Origin: Deltaproteobacteria bacterium RIFOXYA12_FULL_61_11
GTDB taxonomy: Bacteria; Bdellovibrionota_F; JAHFAK01; YA12-FULL-61-11
Direction of reading: 5' to 3'
Assembly: GCA_001799195.1 (NCBI GenBank)
Contig: MGSU01000127.1
Span: forward strand, 1 to 6,916
DNA length: 6,916 bases
A program made the position numbers and the translations under genes. This document shows positions 2,962-6,916 of this stretch, in pieces. The notes below the pieces were generated by a model. That model saw nothing but the letters and a program-made list of their open reading frames with translations. It was not told the origin of the DNA and did not search any database. Each line of letters opens with the position of its first letter. The first letter of the stretch is position 1.

Positions 2962-3804
2962 TCAGAGTTTGACGATCAAGGACATGCTCGGTCCGACGAA
3001 GACAGTAACATCTTGTTTTGCATTGAAATATTCGAAGTTCATGCCGAGGTTGAGTTCGACCGGTACTTGCAGAGCATAGCTGTATTCCAACCCCATGCGG
3101 AGGGCCAGAGCCTTTTCGGTGACCTCGGGAAGACTGAGGGTTTCGTAGCCGGCAAGGCTGGTCCCCTTGGTCATGGTGAAGAACGGGAAATAATCGAGAT
3201 GGTACCGGAGTCCGTGGCGAGTGTCGCTGGTGAGCGGAAAGGAATGTTGGAGGGAACCGAACCAGCCCTCGAAGCGGCCCATTCCCTGGATCCCCATGTG
3301 TTCCGTCACAAAGGTTGTTTCAAAACAATAGTAGCCCCCAACGATGTTGAGGTCGCGATGCAGGTCCAAGCCTGCGTGGAGTTCCGTCCGGCTCGCTGGA
3401 CCAACACCGCTGTCGTCCATGCCTCCCTGCGCTTCGAACCAGGTGATGCCGCGCATATAGGACCCACCTAAGAACAGTCGTTGCAAACCCAACCGGACTC
3501 TGGGCCCCACCTCACCGGTCTGCATCACCGGCGGCATCATCGAGTACACGTTCGATCTGAAATCGAAGAGCCAATATTCGATGGCCACATCCGTCCATAG
3601 TTGCGATCGCGAGGTCGCGATTCTGCGATAGCGTGGGAGCACCCTCGACGTGTCTTCGGAATACACCGTTGGATCAGTGGGGCTTTCCGCCCCTACCCGT
3701 GGAGCCAGAGCCTCACCAGCCCGACCTGGAATGGCCGCTTCCTGGCTTGCTATTGCGCTGAGAATCCAAGAGGCTAGGAGAATCTTCAGCACGAGGCGAG
3801 GCAT
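2962..3804 (-). CDS. Probable outer-membrane beta-barrel protein, paralogue A (280 aa)
   Basis: Family not recognised. ATG 3804 has AGGAG 5 nt upstream and starts a signal peptide (positive residues at 3 and 7, hydrophobic core, cleavage near AIA at 17-19), so the 23-codon upstream extension is rejected. After a low-complexity linker (20-55), the mature part begins at YRR (59-61) and continues in amphipathic strands to the C-terminal VKL. Key motifs are YWLF (77-80), YSMMPPVMQTG (87-97), FLGGSY (111-116), AGLDLHRDL (134-142), HLDYFP (192-197) and DVTVFVGP (265-272). These recur in the gene at 3955-4761, about 45% identical over some 205 residues by hand alignment. It lies 150 nt downstream of that paralogue on the same strand and converges with the plus-strand barrel gene. 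Role unknown; transport, adhesion or structure are all possible. Confidence 0.8.
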   Translation of the reverse strand: MPRLVLKILLASWILSAIASQEAAIPGRAGEALAPRVGAESPTDPTVYSEDTSRVLPRYRRIATSRSQLWTDVAIEYWLFDFRSNVYSMMPPVMQTGEVGPRVRLGLQRLFLGGSYMRGITWFEAQGGMDDSGVGPASRTELHAGLDLHRDLNIVGGYYCFETTFVTEHMGIQGMGRFEGWFGSLQHSFPLTSDTRHGLRYHLDYFPFFTMTKGTSLAGYETLSLPEVTEKALALRMGLEYSYALQVPVELNLGMNFEYFNAKQDVTVFVGPSMSLIVKL

Positions 3805-3908
3805 GCTCACTCCTGGAACGATCGATGTTCTAGGACCGAACTGCAAGAAGTGAACCTCGCTCGGTCGTCCCAAGTAGGGGCTGCGAATGCGACAGTGCAG
3901 AGGGGGGC

Positions 3909-3954: not shown

Positions 3955-4761
3955 TCAGATTTTGTAATTCAAAGCCATACGAGGACCGTAAAACACGGTC
4001 ACGTCGGTCTCGGCGGTGAACATTTCGAGGTTCAGACCGAGGCTGAGATCGAGAGCATTGTCGAAAGCATGGACATAGGCCAAGGAGGTGCGCATCGAAG
4101 TCCCGTACTTGACCACTTCCGGGAGATGGAGAGTGCGATACCCTACTATGGCCACGCCTTTGACCTGTTTGGCAGCGGGGAAGATGTCGAGGTTGTATTC
4201 CAGGGCATGGGTGGTGGAGAGGTCCAGAGGAACCTTGTGCATGATGGAAGCGAAAAGGCCGGAGAAGGCCATTTTAGGGGATAACCCCATTTCCGTAGTG
4301 AGGTCGGTGTCGAAGGAATAATACCCCACGGCGAGGTAGAGGTCGCGGTGCAGGTCAATACCTGCCATCGCTTCCATGCGAGTGACCAAGCCGTTGCCCT
4401 TGTCGGCCATGTCGGGTTCTGCACTCTCGACCCAAGCGAGGGCCTTACTGTACTGACCGCCGAGGAAACAGCGACCGAAACCAAGCCTGAGTACCGGTGC
4501 CAAGTGGCCGGTTTGCATCGAGGGCGGTAACATGCTGTACATGTTCTGGTAAAGATTGAATAGCCAATAGCGGAATCCCGCGTTGACCCAGAAGCTCTCT
4601 TTGGAGAGCCGGGCTCTCCGGTACAGCGGCGCGCTGGTGGATAACGTGTGGTGGGTCGAGAGTTCGAGTTCCGGAGATGACGAGGGTGTTGCTTCGGTTA
4701 TCGCACCGGCAGGACCGGAGAGAAGCAAAAAAAAGAGAATAATCAGCGCGCTGCGCAGCAT
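3955..4761 (-). CDS. Probable outer-membrane beta-barrel protein, paralogue B (268 aa)
   Basis: Family not recognised. The signal peptide is clear: Arg3, a long hydrophobic core (5-15) and AGA at 18-20. ATG 4761 has a GAGGGGGG-type site 4 nt before it. After a Ser/Thr/Pro-rich linker (21-45), the barrel-like part starts at YRR (47-49) and carries YWLF (65-68), YSMLPPSMQTG (75-85), FLGGQY (99-104), AGIDLHRDL (133-141), LDIFP and DVTVFYGP, ending in YKI. The order and spacing match the 280-residue neighbour, so the pair is a tandem duplication that has diverged substantially. The divergence is greatest in the linker and in the loop after residue 110, where the two differ in length and charge; these would be extracellular loops if the barrel model is right. 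It probably heads a two-gene minus-strand unit. Confidence 0.8.
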   Translation of the reverse strand: MLRSALIILFFLLLSGPAGAITEATPSSSPELELSTHHTLSTSAPLYRRARLSKESFWVNAGFRYWLFNLYQNMYSMLPPSMQTGHLAPVLRLGFGRCFLGGQYSKALAWVESAEPDMADKGNGLVTRMEAMAGIDLHRDLYLAVGYYSFDTDLTTEMGLSPKMAFSGLFASIMHKVPLDLSTTHALEYNLDIFPAAKQVKGVAIVGYRTLHLPEVVKYGTSMRTSLAYVHAFDNALDLSLGLNLEMFTAETDVTVFYGPRMALNYKI

Positions 4762-5055: not shown

Positions 5056-6916
5056 ATGATCCATTTCTTCCGGCTTTCCTCAACACCTCTCTTTTCCTTG
5101 GTGATGCTGACCTTCCTGCTGATCGTGGTCCCCGGTTTTGCTCTTTCCCCGGACGATGATCCGGAAATCCGGAGCCTCCATGCAGAGGCGGATCGACACC
5201 ATGTGGCCTTCAAGACCTCGGTGGCAGAGGTCGAGCGGCTGAAAGCGGATTTCCAGACCACGAAGAGTCAGCACGACCGTGTTGCCGCCGAGTTGGCCAC
5301 CATGACGACCCAGCGGACCCAACTCGTCAATCAAGGGAATCTGATCAACGCCGCGGTGAAGAAGCACAAGGACGAATACGAACGCCTCATGACCCTGGCT
5401 ACCCAATACAAGAACCAGGGCAACCAGGCAGAAGCCAAACGGTATTACGACCTGGCTCAGAAAGAGAAAGCGAACGGCCAAGCGAAACAACAGCAACTCA
5501 CCCAACTCAAGTCCCAGGTCGATGCTCTCGAAACCAGGATGACCGCGAAGAAGCGCGAAGTCGATCAACTTGCTGCCATGCTCACCACGAAGAAAAATGG
5601 GGTCGAGCAGGCGATTGCGCGTACCCGGGACCTCGAACAACGTTTCAAGCAGGCGGTGGCCCGGTACGAGAGTGCCAGGAACTCGCTCGGGCAAGAAATG
5701 CAAAACGTCCACCGGATCGGTTTGGACCGGGGAAAGAATGAGGGACTCGCGGCGGGCAAAAATGCTGGTATCCAAGACGGCACCAGAGAAGGGCGCATCG
5801 AGGGTGAGCGGCAGGGACGTCTCGACGGTATCACCGAGGGAAAAGAGCGCGAGCATCGTCGGGGTTACAATGAGGGTGTGATCGAAGGCGAAGCCCGTGG
5901 ACGCAAGGAAGGACTGGCCAACGGCTCGCGGGATGGAGAACGCGAGGGCAGGGTCAAGGGCAGTTGGCAGCGTGGATATGCCGATGGCCATGCCCAGGGG
6001 CTCGAAGAAGGTTATGCCTCGGATGCGGAGCAACGTGGCCGCGAGAAGGGTGAAGAAGTCGGTCGGCGTGACGGTACTGCCCAGGGACAAGCTCAGGGCG
6101 CGATCCAAGGTAAGCATGACACCACCGCTGAATTCGAAAAGGGCCCGCTCGCCGAAACGACCCTCGAGCAACAGATTGGTCCGGTCAGCGCGAACGCGAG
6201 TTCGATGATCAAGAACTCACGGAATAGTTTGACCAATTCCGCAGGTAACCTCCCCGCCAGCGTGGCCACGGCCTGCTCCTACTCTCGAGAGGTGCTCCGC
6301 CGTTCCTGCATCGAAGGTTTCGAGGTAGCCTTCCACCAGGCCCGGCAGGATGCCTACAAGCATTACTTCGAAGAGGCTTTTGCCCAAGGGAGGAAAGAAG
6401 CCTATCGTACAGCCTTCGAGATGCACGCCGCCCAGCAGTATCCCGAGAGTTATCGCGAAGGACTGACCCAGGGCCGGGAACAAGGCTATTCAGAGGCCTA
6501 TCAACCGGCCTATCAGCGCTCGAAGACCGATGCCTTCGAGCACTTCCGCAAACTGGCCTACGAAAATAAAGACCAGCAGGATCCAGCAAGTTACGAACAA
6601 GGCAGGGTCAAAGGTCAGGCCGAGGGCTATGCCAAGGCTACCAAGGAACTCTTCGACCGGGGCTACGCCGCAACCTACGAACCCTCGCGCCGAGCAGCCT
6701 ATGAAGAGGCCTACCGGACGCACTATGAACGGACCAAGCAAGAGGTTGTCGCATACTACCAGAGTAATCCCGTGTTGGCCGTTGCCGAGCCAGAACTGCT
6801 CGACCAGGGACGGGATGGTGTGTTGCAACCGGGAGAGGTTTTCGATGTGCGACTGAGCCTTCGGAATAGCGGCTTTGCATCCTCAGGTGCCACGGTCCAA
6901 CTCTCCTTGCGCTTGC
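5056..6916 (+). CDS. Exported coiled-coil / GX3 tetrad-repeat protein with Ig-like C-terminal domain (3-prime partial)
   Basis: No named family fits the whole protein. ATG 5056 has GGGAGGT 5 nt upstream. Of the visible 620 residues, 1-29 form a signal peptide (Arg6, hydrophobic core 11-25, GFA cleavage). Residues 37-215 are a charged Gln/Lys/Glu-rich coiled coil with a likely turn near 118-141. Residues 222-352 carry glycine every fourth position (31 glycines, two one-residue slips). A linker at 353-405 is followed by C407 and C418, the only cysteines. Residues 421-556 continue a four-residue rhythm of Gly/Ala followed by Phe/Tyr. From 571 a beta-sandwich of the kind seen in surface proteins starts, with the DGVLQPGE turn (587-594) and LRNSG (602-606). 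GX3 arrays are known in FliH/YscL export proteins and in Yae1/Lto1, but those are cytoplasmic, whereas this one is exported. A surface stalk or periplasmic scaffold is my inference. Confidence 0.88.
   Translation, partial: MIHFFRLSSTPLFSLVMLTFLLIVVPGFALSPDDDPEIRSLHAEADRHHVAFKTSVAEVERLKADFQTTKSQHDRVAAELATMTTQRTQLVNQGNLINAAVKKHKDEYERLMTLATQYKNQGNQAEAKRYYDLAQKEKANGQAKQQQLTQLKSQVDALETRMTAKKREVDQLAAMLTTKKNGVEQAIARTRDLEQRFKQAVARYESARNSLGQEMQNVHRIGLDRGKNEGLAAGKNAGIQDGTREGRIEGERQGRLDGITEGKEREHRRGYNEGVIEGEARGRKEGLANGSRDGEREGRVKGSWQRGYADGHAQGLEEGYASDAEQRGREKGEEVGRRDGTAQGQAQGAIQGKHDTTAEFEKGPLAETTLEQQIGPVSANASSMIKNSRNSLTNSAGNLPASVATACSYSREVLRRSCIEGFEVAFHQARQDAYKHYFEEAFAQGRKEAYRTAFEMHAAQQYPESYREGLTQGREQGYSEAYQPAYQRSKTDAFEHFRKLAYENKDQQDPASYEQGRVKGQAEGYAKATKELFDRGYAATYEPSRRAAYEEAYRTHYERTKQEVVAYYQSNPVLAVAEPELLDQGRDGVLQPGEVFDVRLSLRNSGFASSGATVQLSLRL
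5719..6111 (+). repeat. Coding array of 12-nt units: glycine every fourth residue
   Basis: Within the exported protein, glycines fall at 222-262 (11 in a row at 4-residue spacing), 270-302 (9), 307-319 (4) and 328-352 (7). Position 266 is a Glu in register, and slips of one extra residue occur between 302 and 307 and between 319 and 328. The three intervening residues are mostly charged or polar, often Glu, Asp or Gln just before Gly. The DNA units are not identical, so the period is kept by selection on protein rather than by recent tandem duplication. Confidence 0.9.

Follow-up and report, generated by a model that had tools for sequence, protein, structure and literature searches.

The window analysed here, a stretch of 6,916 nucleotides from Deltaproteobacteria bacterium RIFOXYA12_FULL_61_11, ends in a gene whose product belongs to an exported protein family that is apparently undescribed and is built around two long arrays of four-residue repeats. 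With roughly even confidence, we place the protein, as a divergent member, in a family of rod-like structural proteins that are exported and whose helices, by zipper-type packing, would produce a stiff rod outside the cytoplasm. The exported family and the second array are new here; GX3 and glycine-zipper arrays were already known. As the family occurs in several phyla and carries two long tetrad arrays, it offers many natural variants for testing how a soluble glycine stripe of this length folds and packs, which the work on FliH (PMC2674601) did not settle. In these little-studied phyla, the family also points to an envelope or surface component that has yet to be characterised.

Layout of the protein and its glycine array

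The gene starts with an ATG at position 5056, with GGGAGG upstream of it (by eye). Its parts within the window are the following.

5056..6915, + strand: coding part of the exported protein, residues 1-620 (open frame)
5056..5142, + strand: signal peptide (sequence; N-terminal hydrophobic stretch by a simple rule)
5161..5706, + strand: spacer, a predicted long coiled-coil hairpin, residues about 36-217 (AlphaFold pLDDT mostly >90)
5719..6111, + strand: GX3 array, residues 222-352, with 31 on-register glycines (sequence; Pfam Yae1_N match)
6112..6309, + strand: non-repetitive hinge, residues 353-418, with cysteines C408 and C418 (sequence; homologue model)
6310..6744, + strand: second tetrad array, [G/A][Y/F]xx, residues about 419-563 (Gly/Ala and Tyr in excess at spacing 4; family profile)
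6745..6915, + strand: YYQSNPVLAV junction and start of the Ig-like domain, residues 564-620 (homologue alignment; Ig-type sandwich of the homologue)

The window stops inside the Ig-like domain, at a 6-N assembly gap of the contig (G000:C127) that occupies 6917-6922; the same frame runs on across this gap, giving a full protein of about 1095 aa. Cleavage by signal peptidase I is likely after Ala29 (PGFA followed by LS), and a lipobox cysteine is absent. AlphaFold models the spacer as a pair of helices that turns at about residue 121-123, and a fold search with it brought up nothing but generic coiled coils, RipA and SMC among them, with no match below E 0.001. The signal peptide, coiled coil and Ig-like start named in a preliminary description of this DNA are all present; its list of parts also had the GX3 array right, but missed the second, Tyr/Ala-rich tetrad array. 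A Pfam scan of the protein matched Yae1_N (PF09811) only, with 32.9 bits for the part in the window and 26.3 bits for the full-length protein at a cut-off of 27.5; this match is at the level of the repeat and is no evidence of Yae1 function. Scanning against NCBIfam gave FliH and SMC-type matches only, all of them sub-threshold.

In the translation of 5056-6915, on-register glycines occupy residues 222-262 (11), 270-302 (9), 307-319 (4), and 328-352 (7), which sum to 31, with zero off-register glycines in residues 222-352. Glycine pairs at spacing 4 numbered 27, versus 6.5 ± 2.0 in composition shuffles (n = 20,000; maximum 15, none reaching 27). The translation thus bears out the earlier account of a glycine at every fourth residue over 222-352 with two one-residue slips, and the coordinates 5719-6111 given for the array were correct. 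The slips, both +1, lie between 302 and 307 and within 319-328. That account had counted a single substituted register position; there are actually two (266, and another inside 319-328).

The 31 tetrad peptides are all distinct, all four glycine codons are in use, and identical 12-mers are absent from the array DNA. Mean 12-mer identity is 0.43; with the two fixed G bases left out it is 0.32 overall and 0.28 for neighbouring units. Since the tetrads differ, the codons vary and 12-mer identity is low, the units are not recent copies of each other, and the tetrad DNA is diverged as had been proposed. An artefact of tandem duplication was ruled out by the 31 different tetrads.

Elsewhere in the window, two adjacent genes on the - strand (2965-3873 and 3958-4761), divergent from the GX3 gene, encode similar small exported proteins that appear beta-barrel-like (outer-membrane; by eye) and have no Pfam match. 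On the + strand, 1408-2955 encodes an exported protein of about 515 aa, outer-membrane-type by eye, with neither a Pfam nor an NCBIfam match.

Relatives and family membership

Genome contigs searched with the window protein alone yielded no relatives. The route to the family led through Pfam Yae1_N matches in distant genomes and then through a family alignment. Among 290 genomes, the Yae1_N search found a protein in genome G256 whose parts come in the same order and which aligns co-linearly over 409 residues, from array 1 through the hinge and array 2 to the Ig junction. A profile of these two proteins retrieved three more paralogues from G256 (four in this genome), as well as single members in a Candidatus Wallbacteria MAG (G291, L102) and in Candidatus Muiribacterium halophilum (G292, L122). 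Scanning genome records with the family alignment gave 30 loci, mostly from Elusimicrobiota, plus Wallbacteria and Muiribacterium. In a draw of Elusimicrobiota genomes, 20 of 247 contained a strong match, mostly in single copy. Across the 386 genomes around the window's own, full-length matches were confined to G256 and the window's genome; the one other genome of the window's phylum lacked a family member, and plasmid records held no relative of the Wallbacteria member. Neighbourhood clustering revealed no conserved gene neighbour across about 30 loci. The other Yae1_N matches across genomes were mostly short GX3 tails on unrelated proteins, or genuine FliH.

Several further loci were noted in these searches. 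Short, near-perfect GX3 tails (IEQGKAQG-like) form the C-termini of transposase/nuclease-like proteins (by eye) in many unrelated bacteria (L006, L035, L036, L040, and L043). A clearly Elusimicrobiota-type member (L096, 5701-7548, + strand) lies in a MAG named Actinobacteria (HGW-Actinobacteria-6), probably through misnaming or binning, otherwise through transfer. In genome G131, a 753-aa exported protein (L137) combines a degenerate tetrad array with a similar Ig domain behind it, and is possibly a remote relative of the family. The window's own genome encodes a second, even longer exported GX3 protein of 867 aa (L005, G000:C68, 8634-11234, + strand). It comprises two GYxxGYxxG-type arrays, each with a terminal tail of CGSL, a hydrophobic stretch and RRR; the first tail reads in frame, with no stop, into an apparent second signal peptide.

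Family members share the order signal peptide, variable spacer, GX3 array, hinge, [G/A][Y/F]xx array, Ig-like domain, and variable C-terminus. Aligned to its homologues, the window protein shows signal peptide, GX3 array, hinge, [G/A][Y/F]xx array, YYxxNxVL junction, and Ig-like start in the same succession. Homologues with the succession signal peptide-coiled coil-GX3-Ig had been suggested as something to look for; the order was found, except that the coiled coil is no part of what is conserved. Judged from the sequences, the segment before the first array can be exchanged, as can the module that follows the Ig domain: the former is (i) a coiled coil, as in the window protein, (ii) Pro/Asn-rich, (iii) Pro/Gly-rich (PGQ-rich), or (iv) missing, and the latter is SH3-like in most relatives (SH3_3 passes the Pfam cut-off in two), helical, or the window protein's own module. 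All family members examined begin with an N-terminal hydrophobic stretch (simple rule), and the proposed export of the window protein is upheld by this signal peptide, here and in every one of them.

Over the first 80 array positions of six homologues, register columns are 98% conserved versus 45% for the remaining columns, with almost no length change. Together with the diverged array DNA, this agrees with the earlier view of an old, selected design. Across the family, Tyr or Arg is favoured after the glycine in array 1, and an acidic residue or Ala ahead of the next one; in array 2, Gly/Ala is paired with Tyr.

The GX3 array by itself is no proof of kinship, because glycine-fixed shuffles score nearly as high against the family (54.0 bits for the window array alone, equalled by 2 to 15 of 300 shuffles). 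Against a family profile from which the window protein was left out, the second array plus the Ig start score 107 bits; shuffles of this region that preserve the register or the tetrads, or that hold G, A, Y and F fixed (n = 300), stay at 75 bits or below. By this comparison of profiles, it is the second array and the Ig start that tie the window protein to the family; E-values from profiles including the window sequence were excluded as evidence of membership. The highest identity to another member is 28%, and in a tree the window branch, at 7.5 changes per column, is too long for placement. A motif of array 1, RCYxEG, occurs in all other members examined and is absent from the window protein, whose cysteines C408 and C418 lie in the hinge instead. 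This makes the window protein at most a divergent member, and RCYxEG may be the mark of a core group only.

Predicted structure and the proposed rod

For the Wallbacteria homologue, AlphaFold with the family alignment predicts two helices in array 1, of about 107 residues (3-109) and 43 residues (113-155), and two in array 2, of about 83 residues (187-269) and 65 residues (274-338), at a pLDDT of about 90. The hinge (residues 158-184) falls below 50. The Ig-type sandwich has a pLDDT of about 80 and matched many Ig-type domains at Z about 12. The window protein modelled alone gave a pLDDT of 50-60 over array 1 and below 50 over array 2. The earlier notion of the array as a long helix thus stands as a prediction, carried by the homologue and not by the window protein alone. 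In charged sequences AlphaFold may predict single helices too readily, and glycine is unfavourable to helix formation.

Low scores of this sort would also be expected if the arrays were entropic spacers, linkers that are disordered by nature, rich in glycine and highly charged, and the helices a modelling artefact. The Pro/Asn and Pro/Gly stretches that serve as spacers in relatives are clearly low-complexity linkers, which fits this explanation, as does the poor helix-forming tendency of glycine. We nevertheless regard it as unlikely: an exact four-residue register that is 98% conserved, with nearly no length change over about 80 residues across phyla, is unlike disordered linkers, and the confident homologue model also speaks against it.

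A search of solved structures returned no structure of such an array. Within the arrays it matched low-complexity G-rich stretches (a pyridoxal kinase linker, OCM3, and an ARID protein) and, weakly over a portion of array 2, Cry11Ba; it also picked up SH3-like domains. None of these matches helps to interpret the arrays. In fold searches, matches were confined to the Ig domain and generic coiled coils, and viral structures gave nothing below E 0.001.

Under the rod reading, each array is predicted to form one or two very long helices, with a flexible hinge between the arrays. The glycine stripe of array 1 and the Gly/Ala-Tyr stripe of array 2 would act as glycine-zipper and YG-zipper packing faces, along which at least two chains, or the two arrays folded back on each other, could pack backbone to backbone. 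The resulting rod would be stiff, with a length on the order of 15 nm, and would hold the C-terminal modules at a fixed distance. Its location is best read as the periplasm or the cell surface. The modules so held would be the Ig domain, with an SH3-like domain in most relatives and a possible Rossmann-like module in the window protein; the SH3-like domains of the relatives could anchor the rod to the cell wall. Tight packing of a glycine stripe in soluble helices is plausible because deca-GX3 dimerisation (PMC4523923) and the soluble YG zipper of SMN (PMC8287954), both established by experiment, and the FliH dimer with its shorter GX3 arrays (PMC2674601) provide precedents, and a stiff, at least dimeric rod is therefore favoured. 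We counted in favour of the rod the shared order, the kinship score, the conserved stripe, the helix pLDDT of about 90, the signal peptides, SH3_3, and the Ig-type fold. Counted against it were the low pLDDT of the window protein alone, the lack of conserved neighbours, and the lack of a solved array structure. The +1 slips, which interrupt a simple continuous stripe, are a further point against it.

In the family, the array contains an invariant cysteine that has no invariant partner, a pattern which suggests an intermolecular disulfide in most members. A broader proposal, which we hold only tentatively, is that the family represents a widespread, undescribed class of extracellular filaments or stalks. 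Very long, soluble, right-handed Gly/Tyr zippers would here replace the leucine coiled coil, running to more than 20 GX3 units in succession, a length that no solved example approaches, and the array cysteine would cross-link neighbouring chains in most members.

Alternatively, the arrays might chiefly be docking platforms, as in FliH and Yae1-Lto1, where the stripe binds the matching helix of a partner and builds no rod; the Ig and SH3-like modules would then direct the complex to targets on the wall or surface. Dimerising adaptors are indeed the best-studied case of GX3 arrays (PMC4523923, PMC2674601), several paralogues occur in some genomes (four in G256), and the G000:C68 protein could be a partner for the window protein. 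Most Elusimicrobiota carriers, however, have a single copy, so a second family member is no general partner, and the loci lack a conserved neighbour. We give such an adaptor function a small chance.

Comparison with known glycine-repeat proteins

With FliH/YscL (SctL), the window protein shares a long hydrophilic GX3 register, and Tyr is favoured at x1 in both; the window family also has Arg at x1 and acidic residues at x3 (FliH: PMC2674601). FliH has at most 10-12 GxxxG repeats (PMC2674601) compared with 31 glycines in three in-register blocks here, in line with the earlier remark that the array is longer than those of FliH. Earlier work presented FliH as essentially the only carrier of long GxxxG arrays, without a structural model, and in 2009 nothing comparable was present in the PDB set or Swiss-Prot entries searched; FliH itself is a dimer with GX3 arrays (PMC2674601).

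FliH profiles score on the window array, which would fit an export regulator of the FliH kind that stays in the cytoplasm and whose signal sequence was mispredicted. The match is limited to the GX3 part of these profiles, however; Pfam scans found no FliH C-terminal domain (PF02108) in the window protein, and the window's genome has a separate FliH at C13. Because that domain is missing and FliH is encoded elsewhere, the window protein is not FliH. Three family-carrying genomes tested gave no FliH match. The signal peptide disfavours a cytoplasmic location, and the family combines it with Ig and SH3-like domains and with a second, Tyr/Ala array. We consider a regulator of this kind very improbable.

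A weak resemblance (33 bits over 65 residues in a single comparison) links the window protein to clostripain-family (C11) proteins: its Ig start and a more C-terminal stretch, beyond the window, resemble modules (Ig and possibly Rossmann-like) behind Peptidase_C11 in relatives of G256. The window protein differs in having no peptidase domain. Secreted clostripain-family proteins with an Ig domain and following module like those of the window protein lie at L065, L076 (PF03415 confirmed), and L080.

Yae1/Lto1 likewise contains a GX3 array, and in Lto1 the deca-GX3 motif mediates the Yae1-Lto1 heterodimer (PMC4523923). These proteins are cytosolic, eukaryotic Fe-S adaptors with a motif of 40 residues, whereas the window protein is exported and bacterial, has an array of 131 residues and carries other domains. 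An adaptor role in Fe-S insertion into Rli1/ABCE1 is unexpected for it, since it is exported and bacterial. The distinction from both FliH/YscL and Yae1/Lto1 drawn in the preliminary description is therefore sustained. The YG-box of SMN resembles the arrays in its interdigitated Tyr and Gly at spacing 4 in a soluble helix. It has three glycines only, is hydrophobic and eukaryotic, and is unrelated in sequence, so that we claim a likeness and no homology. Its YG zipper, an experimentally solved dimer (PMC8287954), could by analogy serve as a model for how the arrays pack.
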